From contig DUUI01000031.1 of assembly GCA_012841625.1 (NCBI GenBank), positions 1 through 42,643 on the forward strand: 42,643 nucleotides of DNA. Direction: 5' to 3'. This DNA is from Erysipelothrix sp. Lineage in GTDB: Bacteria; Bacillota_I; Bacilli_A; Erysipelotrichales; Erysipelotrichaceae. Within the stretch, counting starts at the first letter, position 1; every line of letters begins with the position of its first letter. A program made the position numbers and the translations under genes. The notes under the pieces were generated by a model. That model had not been told where the DNA came from. It did no database searches and saw nothing but the letters and a program-made list of their open reading frames with translations. Below, one piece after another: positions 29,579 to 40,901 of this stretch.

Positions 29579-31063
29579 CTATTTTAACACAGACACTAGT
29601 CCATTTTTATCTAAGTTTAAAACTTTATCACAAACTTCTTTTAGATACTTTCGATCATGGGACACTGAAATGATGCATCCATTAAATTCTTTGAGCGCTT
29701 TTCGTATTTCAGGATTGGACAATGGACTAAAATTACGAGTTGGCTCATCTAAGACTAGGACGTCATTTTTATCATAGACCATCTTCAAGAATAAGATTTT
29801 AGCTTGTTGTCCGCCTGATAAATTTCCGATTGGACTTTCCATTTCTTGGTGTGTAAATTTCATGGCTCCTAGAAACTTTCGGATGAGTGTTTTGTCTTGA
29901 TATGGATGTATAAATGATACTGCATCCAAGTTCATATCCAAGGTTTCTTGGTAGTTTTGTGGCATATAGCCGACAGAATCACTGATGATATTGTCTTTAA
30001 TAATTCTTAGGAGCGTGCTTTTTCCTGAGCCATTTTGTCCAATGATACCAATCTTTGTTGGGCCTTTGATTAACAGTTCAATGTCGTTGCTTAGAACTTT
30101 ATTTCCAATGGTTAACTTGTCTAGTTTTAAGTCTAAGAGTGTTTTACCTTGTGGAACATTAACTGATGCTTCAAACTTAGCTATGATACTTTCTTCTTGG
30201 TCTGGGATTTCGAGGAAGTCTTCTTTTTCTCTTTCAAATCGTTTACCTGTTGAAATTACTGACCTCATTTTCTTTTTAAGTAGTCTGCCTGTTGATGGGT
30301 CTTGTCGTGTAATAGTTGATTGAGCGTGATGAACTTTTTGAAGAATTTGAGTGTATTTTTCCATCTTTTCTTTGTAATCTTCTCGTTGTTTACTGGCAAT
30401 CATCATATTACGATCGTACAGTTCTTGTCGTTTTAAGACATAGGATTTGTAGTCAAGTTTATGGATACTGTGTTTTGGTTTTGTTTTCTTGATGAGTTGT
30501 TCTATGTGAATAATACCGTTGGCACAGTTTTCTAAAAGAACTTCATCGTGTGAGACAAACAGAATTCCTCCTTCAAAAGAATTGATGAATGATTCTAACC
30601 ATTCTAAGGTTTCAATGTCTAAGTCATTGCTGGGTTCATCGAGTAGTAGAAAGTCTGGATCTTTTAAGAGTAGTTTGATGATTTGTAGCTTGATTTTTTC
30701 TCCGCCTGATAATGAGTTTAGGGGGCGGTTATAATCCATGATGTCAATCTTAAATTCATTAAAGTATTTGATAAATTCATAGTCTTGATAGTTTTTAAAA
30801 TAGGTTTGAATACTTTGTTCTTGGTTTTCTAAGAATTGTGGTAGGTAGCCAACTATGTGGCTGGTTGTGATGTCGCCTGTGACAATTAAGTAGTCATCGA
30901 CCGCTTCTTTATTTATGATTGTTTTGAGCAGACTGCTTTTGCCGTTACCTTCTTCTGAGATGAGGGCTATTTTATCGCCTTTATTTAGGGCGAATGAAAA
31001 GTCTTGTAGTAATATTTGGTTGGTGCCTCTTTTAATGAGGTTTAGATTATTTATTTGTAGCAT
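29579..31063 (-). CDS. ABC-F family ATPase (ribosome-associated)
   Basis: 494 aa from the ATG at 31063, chosen because GGAGG lies 7 bases upstream and the protein then starts MLQINNLNLI. Two ABC domains without membrane segments: the first has P-loop EEGNGKSS (with S36 where glycine is usual), signature LSGGEKIKL and LLLDEPSNDLD; the second has GQNGSGKST, LSGGQQAKI and LVLDEPTRNF. The linker (about 195-270) is helical and charged, as in ABC-F proteins that act in the ribosomal E site. It may give drug protection. A leader peptide and hairpins precede it. Confidence 0.92.
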   Translation of the reverse strand: MLQINNLNLIKRGTNQILLQDFSFALNKGDKIALISEEGNGKSSLLKTIINKEAVDDYLIVTGDITTSHIVGYLPQFLENQEQSIQTYFKNYQDYEFIKYFNEFKIDIMDYNRPLNSLSGGEKIKLQIIKLLLKDPDFLLLDEPSNDLDIETLEWLESFINSFEGGILFVSHDEVLLENCANGIIHIEQLIKKTKPKHSIHKLDYKSYVLKRQELYDRNMMIASKQREDYKEKMEKYTQILQKVHHAQSTITRQDPSTGRLLKKKMRSVISTGKRFEREKEDFLEIPDQEESIIAKFEASVNVPQGKTLLDLKLDKLTIGNKVLSNDIELLIKGPTKIGIIGQNGSGKSTLLRIIKDNIISDSVGYMPQNYQETLDMNLDAVSFIHPYQDKTLIRKFLGAMKFTHQEMESPIGNLSGGQQAKILFLKMVYDKNDVLVLDEPTRNFSPLSNPEIRKALKEFNGCIISVSHDRKYLKEVCDKVLNLDKNGLVSVLK

Positions 31064-31080
31064 ATATTTTCCTCCATTAT

Positions 31081-31148
31081 AAAAAAAGTTCTTGCCATCC
31101 ATAACAAAAACAAAGTGAGAAAATTGTTTGCTAGTTAAGATGGACTGT
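31081..31148 (-). promoter_or_regulatory. Attenuator region between leader ORF and ABC-F gene
   Basis: Minus strand: ACAGTCCATCTT (31137-31148) can pair with the leader's start region (31172-31183; 10 of 12 positions pair). Alternatively, its CCATC can pair with GATGG (31095-31099), 7 bases before a run of seven Ts at 31081-31087. This gives two mutually exclusive structures, one terminator-like. The stems are short and the model is an inference. Confidence 0.5.
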
Positions 31149-31250: not shown

Positions 31251-32192
31251 ATGGAAATTCAACCGCAGAAGTTTCAACAATTAGCTTTAGCTATTAAGAA
31301 TAATATTAACCAGGTTATTGTTGGGAAGAGTGAGGCTATTAATCAATTGATTATCGCGTTGAGTAGTAATGGTCATGTATTGATTGAGGATGTGCCTGGA
31401 ATTGGTAAAACGACATTGGTGTCTGCTTTGGCCAGGAGTCTTGATTTAAGTTTTAAGCGGATTCAGTTTACGCCTGATTTAATGCCAAGTGATATCACTG
31501 GTTTTAATTACTATAATCCTCAGATAGGTGAGTTCATTTTCCAGGAGGGTTTAATTATGAGCCACTTAGTGTTGGCGGATGAGATTAATAGAACGTCTCC
31601 TAAAACCCAGTCTGCTTTACTTGAAGTGATGCAGGAGGGCCAGGTTTCGATTGATGGTCAGACGATGGTTTTGCCTGTGCCGTTTATGGTTTTGGCGACT
31701 CAGAATCCGATTGAGAATGTTGGAACTTATCCTTTGCCTGAGGCTCAACTAGATCGGTTCATGCTTCGTTTACATCTTAATTATCCGTCTGCCCAGGAAG
31801 AATTATCGATTTTAGATATTGAGGATGCAGGCCTTGAGCTTAATAAACTTGAGCCGATTGCGACCAAGAATGATGTGATGTGGATGAGGCGTCAAGTATC
31901 TTTGGTTTATGTTGATGAGAAGGTTAAGAAATATATTGTTGATTTTATGAATGCGACGCGTAATCATCCCGATTTAGTGATTGGAGCTTCGCCTAGGGCG
32001 GCTCAGTCTTTGTTGAAGGCGAGTAAGGCTCAAGCGCTTATTTCTGGTCGTGATTATGTCATTCCGGATGATGTGATGCGTTTAATTCCTAGTTTGTTGG
32101 GGCATCGTTTAAATATTAAACCAGAGAAGAAAATTCAGGCACATTCAGTTAAACAAGTCTTAGATGATTTAATAAAAAACGTTAAAGTATGA
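31251..32192 (+). CDS. MoxR-family AAA+ ATPase
   Basis: 313 aa. Walker A DVPGIGKTT (47-55), Walker B VLADEINR, sensor region ATQNPIE, and the C-terminal lid with GASPRAAQSLLKASKA. MoxR proteins act as chaperone-like ATPases, usually encoded beside DUF58 and TgpA-like transglutaminase genes, exactly as here. The 3' end overlaps the DUF58 gene by 4 bases (ATGA). Divergent from the ABC-F operon; -10 candidates are TATGAT (31219) or TAAAAT (31224). Confidence 0.93.
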   Translation: MEIQPQKFQQLALAIKNNINQVIVGKSEAINQLIIALSSNGHVLIEDVPGIGKTTLVSALARSLDLSFKRIQFTPDLMPSDITGFNYYNPQIGEFIFQEGLIMSHLVLADEINRTSPKTQSALLEVMQEGQVSIDGQTMVLPVPFMVLATQNPIENVGTYPLPEAQLDRFMLRLHLNYPSAQEELSILDIEDAGLELNKLEPIATKNDVMWMRRQVSLVYVDEKVKKYIVDFMNATRNHPDLVIGASPRAAQSLLKASKAQALISGRDYVIPDDVMRLIPSLLGHRLNIKPEKKIQAHSVKQVLDDLIKNVKV

Positions 32193-33253
32193 TTACTCTT
32201 CGGTTTCTGATGTGGCTAGTGATGCTTATCCTAGCGATTATAACGGCCCATTTTAAACTTAGACTTTTTCCGCATGTACTTATTATCTTTTTACTGGCAA
32301 TTCCCATTGTTAGTTTTATTTTCTTACATTTCTTTAAGAAGAAATTAAAAGTATCGATTAACCCAAAGACAAGAATGATTGATAAAGAAGAGATGGGTGA
32401 GTGGGTTTTAACGATTTATAACAATTCTAAAACACAGCCAGCGATGACTCAAATCAAACAAGAGAATGAGAGGATGATGAATCTGTTCACGAATCCTTAT
32501 GAATCTTTAAATCTAAGTTTGACTAAAAAGAGTGAACATATTGGGGTGTTGAGTCCGCCTTTGTTTAGTTTGAAGGTTTTGGATTCATTTCGCTTGATGA
32601 AGAGTAATTATAAACATATTGTGACTGATTCAATTATTGTTTTGCCTCGATTAGAGAGTCCCCTTTTAAACTTAAAGATTACTGATCAATTATTAGTAAG
32701 AGCACAGTCAGCATTGATGACTTCGTTGTTAAGGCTTGAGGATTTAGAGATGGTTCGTCCGATGGAGCCTGGGGATTCGATGAAGCGGATGCATTGGAAA
32801 TTGTCGGCGCGGTTGGGGGATTGGTTTGTTCGGACTGAGGAGAGTGGTCCTCAGCCTAAGATTGAATTGATTGTTTATCCAAACAAGGGTTCGTCTGATT
32901 TGGATCATCGTGATGATTTTTTAGAGGTCGTGGTGAGTCAGATTGCTTATTTCTTGAATAAGAAATTATCACTTGTGTTTATGGGAACAGATTATACGGA
33001 CATCACTCAGATAAATCAAGCTCGTTTAAGTTTTGCTCTGATTGAGATTGATCATTCGATTGAATTGAGACCGGAGTCTGATCAATCGGTTGTGCTTGTT
33101 TTTATTGAGAGTTTGTCTGAACAAATTATTTCGCAGCTTATCTTATTAAGGAATGAGCCTATTATTTACTTATTTAATAAAAATGAAGATCCAGCTCTTT
33201 TAGAGCTTGCCACTTATAACAATTTACTAATTATACAAGATGAAGAAATTTAA
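32189..33253 (+). CDS. DUF58 domain protein
   Basis: 354 aa. Two N-terminal transmembrane helices (about 5-22 and 28-47) are followed by a domain with the DUF58 core around MEPGDSMKRMHWKLSARLGD, where RxxxPGD...IHWK is the family pattern, and a vWA-like fold at the C-terminal half. Function not known, but constantly linked with MoxR and transglutaminase genes. Overlaps tgpA by 14 bases. Confidence 0.9.
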   Translation: MITLRFLMWLVMLILAIITAHFKLRLFPHVLIIFLLAIPIVSFIFLHFFKKKLKVSINPKTRMIDKEEMGEWVLTIYNNSKTQPAMTQIKQENERMMNLFTNPYESLNLSLTKKSEHIGVLSPPLFSLKVLDSFRLMKSNYKHIVTDSIIVLPRLESPLLNLKITDQLLVRAQSALMTSLLRLEDLEMVRPMEPGDSMKRMHWKLSARLGDWFVRTEESGPQPKIELIVYPNKGSSDLDHRDDFLEVVVSQIAYFLNKKLSLVFMGTDYTDITQINQARLSFALIEIDHSIELRPESDQSVVLVFIESLSEQIISQLILLRNEPIIYLFNKNEDPALLELATYNNLLIIQDEEI

Positions 33254-35495
33254 ACTCCCTTTAAAATTACTAGCTGCTATTGCGTTTAGTTATTCCTTAT
33301 CAGTGATTGTGTCGCAGTTGACACTATCACCTTTTGCGCTTGGTGATGTAGCTTTTCTTATAATTATGAGTTTGTTTTGGATTGGTTTGTTTGAACTGGT
33401 GGACCACTTTCCTAAACACACACTTATTGTTTTATTGGTGCTGTTGGTTTTTGGTTTTATTTTTAGAGATGCTGTGATTGATTGGTTGTATAGTGATTTG
33501 GCTAATGAAATTGGTAGTTCAGTTCGTTGGGCTTTGATGCTGCCTGAGTTTAAATTTGAAATGCCTGAGATTTATATGATTGTGTATGTTGCTGTTTTAT
33601 CTCTATTTTCAGTTTTTATTATTTGGTTTAATCCTTTGAAATTATTGGCATCTGTTGTATTGGTTTTACCTTTGTTTTTTATTGATGACTTAACGACATT
33701 TAATTGGTTTGTACCTTTGATTATTGGTTTGGGTGCGGTGCTTTTCTTTTATAATGATCATGACTACTTACTACCTAATACGCCTTTGTTGTTAACGATT
33801 TTGGTAGTGGTGGGTGTCTTGGGGGCAGTGGTTCAGCCGCGCACTTTCTTTTATCGACCTTTGAATCATTATATTAATCGCGACCAGTTGGGAAATTCCT
33901 TTGGGCAGTTTAATTTAAGACAGGTTGGTTATGATACTGGGTCGACTCAAATTGGGGGGCCGGTGACTATTAATGATGATCCGTTTATGGTGGTGAGTGG
34001 TCCGCCGATGTCTTTTTATTTAAGAGGTAATGCGTTTAGTGAGTTTGAGGATGAAACTTGGTTAGCTCAGTCGAATAAGGAGCGTTTCTTGTTTAATAAT
34101 CAGCTTCCGTCTAGAAGACAGAGAGAGGCTTTTTATATTAATTTGAGTGTTCCTGAGGATATGGTTGTTGACGAGCTTAATTATCTAGCTATGGATAATT
34201 ATTTTGAGTCTTATGTTGAGCCAGTTGTGGCGCCTGTTAGGTCACTGTTTGTGAGTGGGAAGCCGTTTAGTATAATTGTGTCGGATGATGTTGATGTGTT
34301 TTTTGATTTGGATGGGATGATTACTTCTGAGCCGACCAATAGTGCCCCGTATCGGATGATTTCGACGATTGAGCCTGTGTCTAATAATACATTTTCTAAC
34401 TTGATACTGACTGATTCTACTTATCGTCTTCCTAGAGTTGAGGCTGGTTATGAGTTTAGGGATAGTGGGACCTTGAGTGCTGATGATGAACTTTTTACTT
34501 TGGTGTATGAACAGTTTGATAATAATCCGTCGATTGAGAATCTGGCGTTGATTGTTGATCATTTTAAGAGTACTTATGATTATGAGTTAGAGGTTGAGTC
34601 ACCACGAAATTATAGGATTAATAATCCTTCGTTTAGTAATACACTTCGTACTTTCTTTGAGGATAAGGAGGGTTATTGTGTTTACTTTGGGAGTGCTTTA
34701 GCTCTTTTACTTCAGGATGTTGGGGTAAAGGCTAGGTATGTTGAGGGCTTTGTTGTTGAGAGTTCTCAATCGGATGATATTACTTCAATAGATCAGCGTG
34801 TTGTTAGAAATAATCATGCGCATGCATGGACTGAGGTTCTTATTCCTCAACTTGGTTGGGTGATTGTTGATGCGACTCCTTCTGCACATATTTCTGATTT
34901 AGTTGAGCCTGCTCCTGACGTGTCTAACCCAGATGATTTTGAGGAGCCTGATTTACCTGATGAGCCTGAGATCGATGAGCCTGAGATCGATGAGCCTGAA
35001 GAGGTTATTGAGCCTGAGGTGGAAGAGCCTATTGTTGAGGACCCTGAGTCGCCTGAAGAGGAATCAAGTTTTATTAACTCACTGTTGATTGTTGCTGTGA
35101 TTTTAGGGTTAATTATCTTTATTCAACAGCGTCGTTTCAATAATCGTCATGATCCAGATTATTTAGCTAAGCGTTTTAGTGAGAATGAAAAACAGACTAT
35201 TATAGAAATCTATAAAGACTTACAGAAGATTTATGGGTTGAATCATCAATATCGTCTTAATACAAATTCTGTTTCTCAGAGTATTTACCAGATAACTAAG
35301 GCTCATAATATCCTTGATAATAAGCAAATGAGGTTTGCCATTCTGGCGATTAATGATGCGCTTTATAGTGATAAGCCGTCTCATCCATTATCGATTAATG
35401 CTTTGACACAGCTTTATTTTAGAGTTGAGAAGGCATCGTCTGTGCAGAGTAATTCGGTGAAGTATTTCTTGTATCGAGTGTTGTTTAATATTTAA
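33240..35495 (+). CDS. TgpA-like transmembrane transglutaminase-family protein
   Basis: 751 aa. About six N-terminal membrane helices (about 8-205) precede an extracytoplasmic region with a transglutaminase core: C480 in EGYCVYFG, H528 in HAHAWTEV and D544 in VIVDATPS, so the triad is complete. After it comes an acidic Pro/Glu-rich linker (about 560-612), one membrane helix (about 615-632) and a DUF4129-like cytoplasmic tail. With MoxR and DUF58 it probably acts on envelope proteins. No good SD is visible, so translation may be coupled to the DUF58 gene. Confidence 0.9.
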   Translation: MKKFKLPLKLLAAIAFSYSLSVIVSQLTLSPFALGDVAFLIIMSLFWIGLFELVDHFPKHTLIVLLVLLVFGFIFRDAVIDWLYSDLANEIGSSVRWALMLPEFKFEMPEIYMIVYVAVLSLFSVFIIWFNPLKLLASVVLVLPLFFIDDLTTFNWFVPLIIGLGAVLFFYNDHDYLLPNTPLLLTILVVVGVLGAVVQPRTFFYRPLNHYINRDQLGNSFGQFNLRQVGYDTGSTQIGGPVTINDDPFMVVSGPPMSFYLRGNAFSEFEDETWLAQSNKERFLFNNQLPSRRQREAFYINLSVPEDMVVDELNYLAMDNYFESYVEPVVAPVRSLFVSGKPFSIIVSDDVDVFFDLDGMITSEPTNSAPYRMISTIEPVSNNTFSNLILTDSTYRLPRVEAGYEFRDSGTLSADDELFTLVYEQFDNNPSIENLALIVDHFKSTYDYELEVESPRNYRINNPSFSNTLRTFFEDKEGYCVYFGSALALLLQDVGVKARYVEGFVVESSQSDDITSIDQRVVRNNHAHAWTEVLIPQLGWVIVDATPSAHISDLVEPAPDVSNPDDFEEPDLPDEPEIDEPEIDEPEEVIEPEVEEPIVEDPESPEEESSFINSLLIVAVILGLIIFIQQRRFNNRHDPDYLAKRFSENEKQTIIEIYKDLQKIYGLNHQYRLNTNSVSQSIYQITKAHNILDNKQMRFAILAINDALYSDKPSHPLSINALTQLYFRVEKASSVQSNSVKYFLYRVLFNI
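34962..35000 (+). repeat. 15-bp tandem repeat in the tgpA-like linker
   Basis: GAGCCTGAGATCGAT occurs twice perfectly (34962-34976, 34977-34991) and starts a third time, encoding EPEID EPEID EPE. It keeps the reading frame and lengthens the acidic linker. Confidence 0.9.
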
Positions 35496-36021: not shown

Positions 36022-37149
36022 TTAATAAATGAACATTGCTCCAGAAGTGGACATTGTGCGGCGTTGGAAGCCCCATGCTTGCCATCCAATTCCCATTTCA
36101 GAGATTGTTACTGTGCCATCGCCGTGAACTGCTTCTACGTATGCTACGTGGTTTTGTCCTGGCCATGTCATGATTGATCCAACTGTTGGTGTTGAGCCTG
36201 TTGCCATGCCGGCACCTTGTGCTCTTCCTAACCAGTTAATAGCGTCTCCCCAGCCATGTGGTACATATCGTTGGGTTGCGACCCACCATGTACACCATCC
36301 TGGTGAATAACTATTGTATACAGGGTTTGGATCATAGGTTGATGATGTTGTGCTTGCGACTGGTGCTGGTGGTACATAATAGTAATCTTCAACACGGTCT
36401 AGTTTTGCATTTAGTTCTGAGTATAAATTTGTTAATTCAACTTGATAGTCAGAGTCTAAATCTTTTGCGTCGTATACGCGGTATAACATATCTTCAACTT
36501 CTGATACGCTTGTATCTTCTAATAGTGTGTTTATTAAGTTTTGTGCATCGACCACTAAGACTGAGTATTCAGCATTGCGTTCTCTGCGGGCGACAACTTC
36601 TGGATCTTCACTAATAATTACAGTGATGTCTTTTGTTGTTGTATTGTCAGATGAGTCCGTTGCTTGAACTTGAACCGCATACTCACCAGGAGTTGAGCGA
36701 TCAACGTCTCCTACTAGAACTACTTCTACTTCGCCGTCGACTTCATCGATTGCGACATAGTCTGATTCAATTACAAATTCTGATTCAAAGGATAAGACTT
36801 GTTCATCGTCTCCTTCGATTACTGGTCCATAGATATCTACTACTCGAACAATCTTACTTAGCTTAATTGTTTCTTGACCTTTAGTTGCTACGTAGACTAC
36901 TAACTGTGGTCCTACTTCTGATGTATCAATAATCGAGTAGTCGATTGAGTCAAATGTTCCTGATACAACATAGTTCATAGGATCTACATTGTCGTCTTGT
37001 TTTACTCTAATATCAGCACTAGTTAAAACTAATTCGACTTTTTCTGGTTCTACTGGGTCAATTGCTTGAACATCCTGAGTTGGTATTACCCATCCACCAG
37101 TCGATATCATAACTGCTAGTAAAAGCAGAATGAGTTTGTGTGTTTTCAT
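36022..37149 (-). CDS. Secreted CHAP-domain peptidoglycan hydrolase
   Basis: 375 aa. Signal peptide 1-29 (cut near VQA|ID). Two Ig-like segments follow: about 35-110 and about 110-185, the latter with DGEVEVVLVGDVDRSTPGEYAVQVQATDSSDN in the style of bacterial Ig-like/HYR domains. Next is a helical segment (about 190-260), a low-complexity linker, and a C-terminal CHAP domain (about 282-375) with C286 (GWCTWWVA), H334 (QNHVAYVE) and E351 (ISEMG). CHAP enzymes are amidases or endopeptidases cutting wall peptides. Its own promoter is at 37188-37215. Confidence 0.9.
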   Translation of the reverse strand: MKTHKLILLLLAVMISTGGWVIPTQDVQAIDPVEPEKVELVLTSADIRVKQDDNVDPMNYVVSGTFDSIDYSIIDTSEVGPQLVVYVATKGQETIKLSKIVRVVDIYGPVIEGDDEQVLSFESEFVIESDYVAIDEVDGEVEVVLVGDVDRSTPGEYAVQVQATDSSDNTTTKDITVIISEDPEVVARRERNAEYSVLVVDAQNLINTLLEDTSVSEVEDMLYRVYDAKDLDSDYQVELTNLYSELNAKLDRVEDYYYVPPAPVASTTSSTYDPNPVYNSYSPGWCTWWVATQRYVPHGWGDAINWLGRAQGAGMATGSTPTVGSIMTWPGQNHVAYVEAVHGDGTVTISEMGIGWQAWGFQRRTMSTSGAMFIY

Positions 37150-37363: not shown

Positions 37364-37392
37364 TCTACATGTGTACTATTTTGAGGTATAAT
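37364..37392 (+). promoter_or_regulatory. Promoter of murF-ddl-alr
   Basis: TCTACA (37364-37369) and TATAAT (37387-37392) with 17-base spacing. The SD AGAGGA precedes the ATG at 37421. About 150 bases separate it from the divergent CHAP promoter. Confidence 0.65.
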
Positions 37393-37420
37393 ACTTATAG
37401 AAAAGAGAAAAGAGGACAAA

Positions 37421-39829
37421 ATGATTCAAACCACTTTAAATGAACTTGCTAGAATGTGTAAGGGGCAATTGATTAATACTGAGGAAGATTTTAGCGTGAG
37501 CAAGGTTAGCATTGATACTCGTAATATGGATGGTGCTCAAATATTTATTCCTATTATTGGAGAAAACTTTGATGGACATTCCTTTATTGATTTGGCTTTT
37601 CGTCATGGAGCTCTTGTTTCTTTATTTCAGAAAGATTATGATTATTCAATGTTTAAGTCTCCCCTTATCTTAGTTGATGATACGACTGAGGCTTTGGGGC
37701 AGTTGGCTAAGAGTTATCTGGAGCTTATTGGTGCTAAGGTTGTTGGGGTTACTGGTAGTAATGGTAAGACTTCGACTAAGGATATTATCGCAAGTCTTTT
37801 GTCGGTTCATTACAGAGTTCAGAAGACACTGGGTAATTTCAATAATGAGATTGGTTTACCGTTAACTATTTTGAGAATGCCGCAGGATACTCAGGTTGCT
37901 GTTTTGGAAATGGGGATGTCGGCTCTTGGTGAGATTTCTAAATTGGCTCATATTGCACCTTGTGATGTTGCGGTTATTACTTCTATTGGGAGTGCGCATT
38001 TAATGGATTTAGGGTCTGTTGAGAATGTTGTTAAGGCGAAGCTTGAGATTACTGAGACCTTAAAAGAGGATGGTGTTTTGATTATTAATGGAGACCATCC
38101 TGATCTTATGAGGCAGGTAAGGGAATTGAGTCCTGAATTTCCTGTTTTGACGTATGGATCGAGGTCGCATAATCAGTATCAGATTTCGAGTGTGTCTCAG
38201 TTTATTGATAGCATTGTCTTTACGTGTGAGGGGTTGACTGAGGATATTATTGAGGTGAATCTTCTTGGGCGTTTTCAGGCGCAGAATGTGGTTGCGGCTT
38301 GTATCACTGCCAACTTATTTGATATTGAGATGGAGGAGCTGTTTGAGCCTTTGAAGCATTTAGAGATTACTGGTAAGCGTAATGAGATTCATTTTGTGAA
38401 TGAATCTGTTGTTATTGATGATTCGTATAAATCAAATCCTGAGGCACTAAAGAGTGCTTTGGATCTTCTGTCGTCTTATCAATATGATGCACCTAAGATT
38501 GCGGTATTGGGCGATATGTTGGAGCTTGGTGATAATGAGGTAAGGTTTCATCAGGAGATAAGCATGTTGTTGAATGACTTAAATATTAATCGAATTTACA
38601 CGATTGGGCATTTGTCGAGGCATTTCCATGATTACACTAATATTATTGGGGAGCATTTTGATTCGCAGGATGAATTATTTAATAGTTTGAAGCCTTGGAT
38701 TAATCAACCTTCGACGATATTGGTTAAAGCGTCTAATTCCATTAGATTATATGATGTGGTTGATAGACTTAGAAAAGAGGTTAAGAAAATGAAGGTTGCT
38801 ATTATGTTTGGCGGAAAGAGCAGTGAATATACAGTTTCGCTGTCTTCGGCTTATTCGACTTTACAGAATTTCCCACATGAGGATTATGAATTAATTCAGA
38901 TTATTGGATCGCAGGATGGTCATTTTTATCGTGGTGATTTTTCTTTGGATGAAATTGAATCAGATACATGGATGAATAATCCAACTACTAGAGAGGTTTA
39001 TGTTAAGCCTGGGAATAATTCTCAGTTTTTCTATTTAGATAATTTACAGAGTTTTAAGGTTGATGTTGTTTTTAATATGATTCATGGCAAAATGGGTGAG
39101 GATGGTGTTCTTCAGGCTTTGCTTGAGACGGGTGGTATTAAATATACTGGGTGCGATCAAGAATCGTCTATCTTGTGTTATGACAAGGATATTACGTATC
39201 GCTTGTTGGATTTAACTGATATTAAAAAACCTAAGTATAGAACGCTTACTTCTTTAATTAAGGAGGCTGATTACTATAAACTTGTTGAGGAGCTTGGGCA
39301 GAAAGTTGTTGTTAAGCCGGCTCGTGAGGGAAGTTCTTATGGTATTTCGATTGTTGATAACTATTCCGATTTCTTTGATGGTGTTCAGAAAGCACTGAGG
39401 TATGATTCTAAGGTTGTTGTTGAGGAATATATTAAAGGGATTGAGATTGGGTGTGCTGTTTTAGAGAAAGATGGCGAGCTGATGGTTGGCGAGGTTGATG
39501 AAGTTGAGCTTCAGTCTGGGTTCTTTGACTTTGAGGCTAAGTATGAACATAAAGGGTCTCAGATCCATTGTCCGGCTCGTATTTCTGATGAAATTTCGGA
39601 TTTAACGAAGGAAACTTCGCTTCGTGTTTTTAAATTATTAGGATGTCGTGATTTCTCGCGTATTGATTTCTTTATTACTGATGATAATGTTTTATATTTT
39701 AATGAAATTAATACAATTCCTGGGTTTACTTCGACATCACGTTATCCTGGAATGATGCAGGAGGTTGGTGTGTCTTTTAAAGAGGTGATTTCTACCCTTA
39801 TTGAGAATGCGGTGAATCGTAATGATTGA
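37421..39829 (+). CDS. murF-ddl: MurF-Ddl fusion (D-Ala-D-Ala adding enzyme / D-Ala-D-Ala ligase)
   Basis: 802 aa. Residues 1-456 are a full MurF (P-loop GVTGSNGKTST at 109-119, NNEIGLPLT, DDSYKSNPEA), the ligase that adds D-Ala-D-Ala to UDP-MurNAc-tripeptide. Residues 457-802 are a full Ddl (MKVAIMFGGKSSEYTVSLSS; ATP-grasp with VVKPAREGSSYG; FEAKY with the Tyr that favours D-Ala over D-lactate; FNEINTIPGFTSTS). There is no linker. The Ddl part begins at an ATG (38789) that keeps its own AAAAGAGG SD, and overlaps a TGA in the next frame (ATGA). Overlaps alr by 8 bases. Confidence 0.92.
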   Translation: MIQTTLNELARMCKGQLINTEEDFSVSKVSIDTRNMDGAQIFIPIIGENFDGHSFIDLAFRHGALVSLFQKDYDYSMFKSPLILVDDTTEALGQLAKSYLELIGAKVVGVTGSNGKTSTKDIIASLLSVHYRVQKTLGNFNNEIGLPLTILRMPQDTQVAVLEMGMSALGEISKLAHIAPCDVAVITSIGSAHLMDLGSVENVVKAKLEITETLKEDGVLIINGDHPDLMRQVRELSPEFPVLTYGSRSHNQYQISSVSQFIDSIVFTCEGLTEDIIEVNLLGRFQAQNVVAACITANLFDIEMEELFEPLKHLEITGKRNEIHFVNESVVIDDSYKSNPEALKSALDLLSSYQYDAPKIAVLGDMLELGDNEVRFHQEISMLLNDLNINRIYTIGHLSRHFHDYTNIIGEHFDSQDELFNSLKPWINQPSTILVKASNSIRLYDVVDRLRKEVKKMKVAIMFGGKSSEYTVSLSSAYSTLQNFPHEDYELIQIIGSQDGHFYRGDFSLDEIESDTWMNNPTTREVYVKPGNNSQFFYLDNLQSFKVDVVFNMIHGKMGEDGVLQALLETGGIKYTGCDQESSILCYDKDITYRLLDLTDIKKPKYRTLTSLIKEADYYKLVEELGQKVVVKPAREGSSYGISIVDNYSDFFDGVQKALRYDSKVVVEEYIKGIEIGCAVLEKDGELMVGEVDEVELQSGFFDFEAKYEHKGSQIHCPARISDEISDLTKETSLRVFKLLGCRDFSRIDFFITDDNVLYFNEINTIPGFTSTSRYPGMMQEVGVSFKEVISTLIENAVNRND

Positions 39830-40901
39830 TCGCGCTTGGTTGGAGATTGATGCGCAGGCACTTTTGAATAATTATCAACAAATCCAAAATCGTGTGGGTC
39901 GTTCGAAAGTAATGGCTGTGGTTAAGGATGTATTTTATGGACTGGGAGTTGATTCTGTTTTAACACTTCAGGAGCATGGTGTTGATTTTTTTGCGACTGC
40001 GACGATTAGTGAGGCTTTGGAATTGCGTCATGCTGGGATTGATAAAAATATTTTAGTTTTGGGGTATACGCACCCTTCTCGTTTTATTGAGCTGGTTCAG
40101 AATGATTTACATCAAACGATTATTTCTTATGATTATGGTTTGAAAATTGAAACTTTTCATGAGAGGATTAAAACTCATTTGAAAATTAATACTGGTATGA
40201 ATCGTCTAGGTGTTAATTATAAGGAGAGGGAAAAGATTTTAGATTTATATAATCGTTTAGAAATTTCTGGTGTCTTTTCTCATCTTTTAGCGAGTGATGA
40301 ATTGACTGAAAAAGGTAGAGATGTGACTAAGCTGCAAATTCAGCGAATGGATGAAGTGATTGATTTTTTAGAGTCCCATAATGTTGGTGTGGGGTTTGCT
40401 CATCTTCATAATTCGTATGGGTGTTTAAATTATGGAGAGTATCAATATGATTATGTTCGTCCTGGTTTAATCTTTGTTGGGTGTCCTGATGCTGAGAACT
40501 TCCAAAATGCTTTGACACTGAAGGCTCGTGTGGCGATGGTTAAGGATATTAAAAAGAATGAGCAGATTGGTTATGGTGCAGAGAACACTGTGCCTAGAGA
40601 TATGAGGGTTGCGACTGTAACCATTGGTTATGGTGATGGGTTGGAGAGGCGTTTGGCTGAAACTGACTTTACGCCTAGCATTGGTGGTGTTGCGTGTCCT
40701 TTTGTTGGGCGTATGTCGATGGATCAATGTGTTGTTGATGTGTCTAATGTCGATAATGTTAAAGAGGGGGATGTTATTGAGTTTTTAAATAACGAGCATG
40801 ATGTCTTTAAAATGGCTGAAGCATTGAATACGATTCCGTATGAGATCTTGACCCATATGATGAGTCGGCTGCCTAGGAGTAATATTAATGAAGAACTATA
40901 A
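39822..40901 (+). CDS. alr: Alanine racemase with divergent PLP-lysine motif
   Basis: 359 aa. PLP enzyme making D-alanine. The lysine is kept in VMAVVKDVFYGLG, where most Alr proteins have KANAYGHG; Tyr and Gly of the motif are kept but the ANA and H are changed. The second catalytic tyrosine is in TIGYGDGLERRL, the substrate-binding motif GRMSMDQ is intact, and the PLP-contacting Arg is in LKARV. Overlaps murF-ddl by 8 bases, so Alr, Ddl and MurF are made from one message. Ends at a terminator. Confidence 0.9.
   Translation: MIDRAWLEIDAQALLNNYQQIQNRVGRSKVMAVVKDVFYGLGVDSVLTLQEHGVDFFATATISEALELRHAGIDKNILVLGYTHPSRFIELVQNDLHQTIISYDYGLKIETFHERIKTHLKINTGMNRLGVNYKEREKILDLYNRLEISGVFSHLLASDELTEKGRDVTKLQIQRMDEVIDFLESHNVGVGFAHLHNSYGCLNYGEYQYDYVRPGLIFVGCPDAENFQNALTLKARVAMVKDIKKNEQIGYGAENTVPRDMRVATVTIGYGDGLERRLAETDFTPSIGGVACPFVGRMSMDQCVVDVSNVDNVKEGDVIEFLNNEHDVFKMAEALNTIPYEILTHMMSRLPRSNINEEL

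Follow-up and report, generated by a model that had tools for sequence, protein, structure and literature searches.

Introduction

Several fusions between enzymes of the Mur pathway have been reported, namely MurC-Ddl in Chlamydia, MurE-MurF in Bordetella, MurB-MurC, MurG-MurC and MraY-MurG (PMC6420597, PMC4803751, PMC4929429), and such fusions are commonly interpreted as a sign that the Mur enzymes form a complex in the cytoplasm. A MurF-Alr fusion is known as the NCBIfam model PRK11930 (NF008897). We found no description of a MurF-Ddl fusion in a full-text search of 5.39 million open papers, and a recent study of Erysipelotrichia peptidoglycan genes mentions no fusion (PMC12786226). A protein that joins the enzyme making D-Ala-D-Ala to the enzyme using it, and that has originated repeatedly, thus seems to be undescribed in this literature. 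Here, we analyse such a fusion in a contig of Erysipelothrix sp.; "the window" refers to the whole stretch of DNA that was analysed, with a length of 42,643 nucleotides.

A single reading frame encodes MurF and Ddl

The first-pass annotation of this DNA had described an 802-codon frame that joins a complete MurF (residues 1-456) to a complete Ddl (residues 457-802) with no linker, and the open reading frame and profile matches bear this out. The frame runs from ATG to TGA with zero internal stops and has two parts:

37421..39829, forward strand: fused murF-ddl gene, 802 aa, with the TGA stop at 39827-39829
37421..38788, forward strand: MurF part, residues 1-456, UDP-MurNAc-tripeptide--D-Ala-D-Ala ligase (TIGR01143 and conserved residues)
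38789..39826, forward strand: Ddl part, residues 457-802, placed in a VanG-like Ddl clade, omega loop EAKY (TIGR01205, NF002528)

The MurF model TIGR01143 matches residues 31-450 over its entire length (profile positions 1-418 of 418) with 384.5 bits against a cut-off of 288.6, and the Ddl model TIGR01205 matches residues 458-797 with 287.8 bits (cut-off 245.65). The Ddl half also matches NF002528 above threshold and in full length (311.9, cut-off 262), as well as Pfam PF01820 and PF07478. In the MurF half, the Mur-ligase P-loop TGSNGKTSTKD (111-121), the EMGM motif (163-166), H193 and K207 are conserved in an alignment of relatives; we take residues 112-121 (GSNGKTSTKD), E163, H193 and K207 to have the functional roles known for this family. 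The Ddl half contains E469, S638/S639, Y708, R747, D749, E762 and N764 with a spacing that matches E. coli DdlB, whose ATP-grasp catalytic residues are E15, S150, Y216, R255, D257, E270 and N272. Judged by these residues, both active sites are intact in the fused protein. The source genome (1.37 Mb, 97% complete) was searched for a second MurF or a second Ddl and none was found. The fused gene is therefore its sole murF and sole ddl, and the fused protein must perform both jobs. Both pathway enzymes are complete within a single open frame, which relatives conserve as described below, and in this respect the gene belongs with the Mur-pathway fusions.

The following features flank the fused gene:

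37364..37392, forward strand: promoter-like TCTACA-17-TATAAT 5' of murF, a weak candidate, as promoter matches are at least as frequent in shuffles
37408..37415, forward strand: Shine-Dalgarno AAAAGAGG of murF, duplex -9.8 kcal/mol
39822..40901, forward strand: alr, alanine racemase of a VanT-like clade, sharing its first 8 bases with the end of murF-ddl; no second alr in the genome
40905..40922, forward strand: terminator-like stem-loop followed by a T-run, a consensus match only and a plausible end of a murF-ddl-alr operon

The alr protein exceeds the cut-off of TIGR00492 (274.3, cut-off 168), and no other alanine racemase was found in the source genome. With its 8-base overlap, alr would complete an operon for the D-alanine branch (racemase, Ddl and MurF). 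In the fused clade, the PLP-lysine motif of this racemase is altered and reads KDxxYGLG for KADAYGHG. Further upstream, the window encodes a ribosome-protection-type ABC-F protein (29579-31102, reverse strand), which scores below all named resistance cut-offs (294.9, with the general model requiring 380), and a three-gene operon for a MoxR ATPase, a DUF58-like protein and a transglutaminase-core membrane protein (31251-35495, forward strand), which is adjoined by a gene for a secreted CHAP-domain protein (36022-37149, reverse strand).

The fusion is conserved in relatives and arose at least four times

All 316 genomes of an order-wide survey were searched with the fused protein as query, and fused genes were found in nine of them. 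The first-pass annotation had suggested a search of related genomes, and close relatives, far from all having separate murF and ddl genes, carry the same fusion: a genome of the same genus (G001, 64% identity) and two genomes of the sister genus (G009 and G221, 56%), on the MAG contigs JAAYEW010000148, JAAZEC010000112 and JAAZEF010000094. Together with the source genome (G000), these form the window's clade. Within this clade, dN is 0.16-0.49 in both halves, while dS is at least 1.3 where computable, or saturated; near-saturated synonymous sites with a low dN indicate that the fused frame has long been kept under purifying selection. The first-pass annotation had also offered a real two-enzyme protein as one of two readings, which agrees with the conservation in four genomes of two genera, the near-saturation of synonymous sites and the status of the gene as sole MurF and Ddl source. 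As the same fusion is present in a congener and in two sister-genus genomes, all of them separate MAGs, we conclude from this comparison that the two-enzyme MurF-Ddl protein is real and was not created by faulty sequencing or assembly.

The remaining fused genes are those of G028, G062 and G064, G048, and G302. In the G064 copy (L038), a premature stop interrupts Ddl at residue 314, and this copy is consequently either broken or misassembled. In 46 other pairs that were inspected at the DNA level, one of which (G421) comes from outside the order, murF and ddl are unfused neighbours, with a spacing that ranges from -11 to +15 bases. A profile built from six fused proteins was run against wider samples of 395 class and 392 phylum genomes, which overlap each other and the order, and gave zero fusions beyond the order (for the phylum, among the matches listed, under 1e-130). 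No MurF-Ddl fusion was found in viral contigs. Around 120 of the 316 order genomes also contain a parallel pair, sometimes beside the ordinary murF-ddl, in which a MurF-like ligase (~520 aa) that carries membrane helices at its N-terminus precedes a Ddl of a different type (loci including L123, L124 and L135-L138). This membrane-anchored pair was unfused in every full-length match seen in these genomes, and apparent long open reading frames each proved to be two frames.

A maximum-likelihood tree, computed by a quick method from the concatenated MurF and Ddl sequences (55 rows, junction residues excluded), requires five changes between the fused and separate states, and the well-supported branches by themselves force five. 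The fusions of G028, G062 and G064, G048, and G302 are placed apart from each other and from the window's clade, and a tree constraining all fused genes to one clade was rejected (p-AU 2e-41). As G028 and G062/G064 possibly share one gain that was followed by a loss (G004), the safe count is at least four gains. The MurF-Ddl fusion has thus arisen independently at least four times in this order.

Loss of a stop codon is the simplest origin

Sixteen of the 46 separate pairs already share a frame, and nine have a stop codon (TAA or TAG) immediately before the ddl ATG, with zero spacing; these zero-spaced in-frame pairs include those of the group that branches as sister to the window's clade. An alignment with relatives identifies the corresponding codon of the fused gene:

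38786..38788, forward strand: codon AAA (Lys456) at the site of TAA/TAG in nine separate pairs

Directly before this ATG, the four genomes of the window's clade and G302 have the codon AAA, and G028 has GAA, each one substitution away from TAA. Because relatives possess an in-frame, zero-spaced murF-stop-ATG-ddl arrangement, a single substitution from TAA to AAA suffices, and the loss of a stop codon (murF-TAA-ATG-ddl to murF-AAA-ATG-ddl) would be the simplest origin, rather than an A-run indel. The one-base indel that had been put forward in the first-pass annotation is unneeded and unsupported, as relatives are already in frame with zero spacing, but since the sister group pointing to stop loss lies on a very long branch, an indel would be unlikely rather than impossible in the window's clade. 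The MurF tail past the conserved K-x-S motif measures 20-21 residues in fused and 14-24 in separate genes; the tails are equally long, so no linker was added and nothing was lost. The ddl ATG does overlap a TGA in the +1 frame, which had been taken as ATGA coupling. However, ATGA is present at 45 of the 55 ddl starts, fused or separate, because ddl codon 2 frequently begins with A, and it is uninformative on the frame. The idea that the overlap is left over from a gene in the +1 frame was therefore rejected.

The start signals of ddl are retained within the fused gene

Two further features lie at the junction:

38773..38780, forward strand: internal Shine-Dalgarno AAAAGAGG, 8 bases 5' of the ddl start codon, duplex -10.8 kcal/mol
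38789..38791, forward strand: retained internal ATG (Met457), the former ddl start, kept in 9/9 fused genes

The internal Shine-Dalgarno was located where the first-pass annotation had placed it, 8 bases before ATG 38789, and is letter-for-letter identical to murF's own (37408-37415). Its duplex is the strongest found for any of the gene's 66 ATGs, whatever their frame. Across the nine fused genes, pairing of the junction Shine-Dalgarno with the 16S tail ranges from -7.4 to -12.7 kcal/mol (-9.3 to -10.8 in the four genes of the window's clade) and is the best among the internal in-frame ATGs in every case. The median is -9.3 kcal/mol for fused junctions, -9.1 for separate ddl genes and -2.5 for other in-frame murF ATGs, just 2% of which reach -7.4 kcal/mol, the weakest fused value. 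Folding predictions show the junction mRNA to be no more structured than shuffles, so the Shine-Dalgarno is not predicted to be masked. A properly spaced Shine-Dalgarno before an in-frame start codon, both conserved, is the arrangement expected for in-frame internal initiation. The internal start most likely still works, with free Ddl as a second product, a possibility that the first-pass annotation had raised and that is supported at the sequence level by the retention of Shine-Dalgarno and ATG in nine of nine fused genes from at least four origins.

We consider it likely that the gene encodes a genuine bifunctional MurF-Ddl enzyme, formed by stop loss and acting as the sole source of MurF and Ddl, and that free Ddl is additionally made from the retained internal start. 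In this scenario, loss of the stop codon between the in-frame, zero-spaced genes would have created the bifunctional enzyme. Ribosomes starting at the murF ATG would synthesize a MurF-Ddl protein of ~90 kDa and those starting at the retained internal Shine-Dalgarno and ATG a free Ddl of ~38 kDa. Ddl could consequently be made in excess over MurF, which the two-gene arrangement had also allowed.

The best-surviving alternative, which we nevertheless regard as unlikely, is that the fusion is real but yields the full-length protein alone. The internal Shine-Dalgarno and ATG would then be a silent relic of the two-gene state, overrun by ribosomes that arrive from murF; an internal start can be occluded by ribosomes translating through it. 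The strength of the junction Shine-Dalgarno is partly forced by the encoded, conserved amino acids (K-E), and we therefore assessed it by resampling synonymous codons: with one gene per fused lineage there is a modest excess in strength (Fisher p 0.013), the four genes of the window's clade are only suggestive (p 0.08), and for the window copy by itself codon choice is uninformative (p 0.55). Some fusions outside the window's clade may also be young enough to hold relics, so that their retained Shine-Dalgarno and ATG could reflect a lack of time. In the window's clade, by contrast, synonymous sites are near-saturated and yet four of four genes hold a strong junction Shine-Dalgarno, and across at least four origins neither the ATG nor the Shine-Dalgarno was ever lost.

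For the order as a whole, we lean towards a recurrent route from operon to fusion, taken at least four times, in which the ribosome-binding site of the second cistron is kept inside the fused gene and a bifunctional MurF-Ddl would be made alongside surplus Ddl. Intermediates exist for every step, from overlapping genes to zero-spaced genes with one stop codon to fused genes. This natural series could be used to ask whether the fusion brings a kinetic gain or is the neutral result of stop loss, in which case the enzyme ratio would be rescued by the retained internal start.

Channelling and assembly errors as alternative explanations

AlphaFold2, run with a 27-row alignment, predicts both halves to be well folded (mean pLDDT 88.7). 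A five-residue connector lies between the last MurF helix, which reaches to residue 451, and the first Ddl strand, which starts at residue 457, and the pTM of 0.62 gives no confident mutual orientation of the halves. One might speculate that selection favoured the multi-enzyme protein because it channels D-Ala-D-Ala from the active site of Ddl to that of MurF, as the two enzymes act in succession, MurF adding the product of Ddl, the fusion recurs in the order and channelling has been suggested for MurE-MurF (PMC4929429, PMC6420597). We think this improbable, as there is no confidently predicted interface, the active sites of Bordetella MurE-MurF are ~35 A apart (PMC6420597) and the kept start for free Ddl argues against an obligatory coupling. 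As a third of the pairs are in frame, stop loss between zero-spaced genes could also recur by chance. The nearness of D-Ala-D-Ala maker and user may nonetheless help. That a sequencing or assembly error, such as an A-run indel, joined genes truly overlapping in the genome has a negligible chance of being correct, for although the sequence around the junction is rich in A and murF and ddl commonly overlap in the order (-4, -8, -11), an artefact is ruled out by four independent assemblies from two genera, which share the frame at 36-44% amino-acid divergence, and other lineages are fused too, including the single-contig genome G062.

Comparison with known systems

The best matches of the Ddl half and of the alr protein are VanG and VanT, and we considered a van-like, D-Ala-D-Ser reading of the locus. 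This was rejected: the Ddl half scores 380 with NF000091 (VanG-type D-Ala-D-Ser ligase, cut-off 495), the alr protein scores 332.9 with NF033131 (VanT serine racemase, cut-off 460), and in an alignment to 4fu0 the omega loop reads EAKY in the window versus TEKY in VanG. Position 354 of Alr is Tyr in the window copy and Asn in the congener and most relatives, as in VanT of the vanG cluster; as Asn also occurs in relatives with a single racemase, this position does not separate the activities here. Complete genomes of 1.7-1.9 Mb from one genus (G191, G196, G202 and G195; loci L040-L043), which is probably Erysipelothrix proper, have murF and ddl in frame with one stop between them. Their Ddl, in which the omega loop reads FDFQEKY (VanG: FDYTEKY), occupies a very long branch, and an extra Alr-like racemase is encoded directly behind it. 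E. rhusiopathiae is intrinsically resistant to vancomycin for unexplained reasons (PMC9637936), and it would be worth checking whether its precursors end in D-Ser.

Among the described fusions, Chlamydia MurC-Ddl is similar in that Ddl and a Mur ligase are present in one chain with Ddl activity, as summarized in PMC4803751 (citing McCoy and Maurelli 2005). However, the MurC step is not next to that of Ddl, whereas in the protein described here the partner, MurF, uses the product of Ddl. Bordetella MurE-MurF (NF008896/PRK11929) likewise combines two consecutive pathway enzymes in one chain (PMC6420597), but the partner differs and the enzymes are connected by a linker of ~20 residues (PMC4929429), which MurF-Ddl does not have; the PRK11929 model scores 348 with the window's fusion, far below its cut-off of 1023. 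In MurF-Alr (NF008897/PRK11930), MurF is also joined to another enzyme of the D-alanine branch, whereas alr of the window is a separate, overlapping gene, the protein of which scores only 253.6 against a cut-off of 804. Bacterial genes with in-frame internal starts that give N-terminal proteoforms (a field that includes PMC11005335) share a second Shine-Dalgarno and ATG from which a shorter product is expected, but the shorter product of MurF-Ddl would be a complete, separate enzyme. The separate murF-ddl(-alr) pairs of the order have the same gene order, the ddl Shine-Dalgarno and start, and orthologous proteins, and differ from the fused gene in that a stop codon is present and only two proteins are made.
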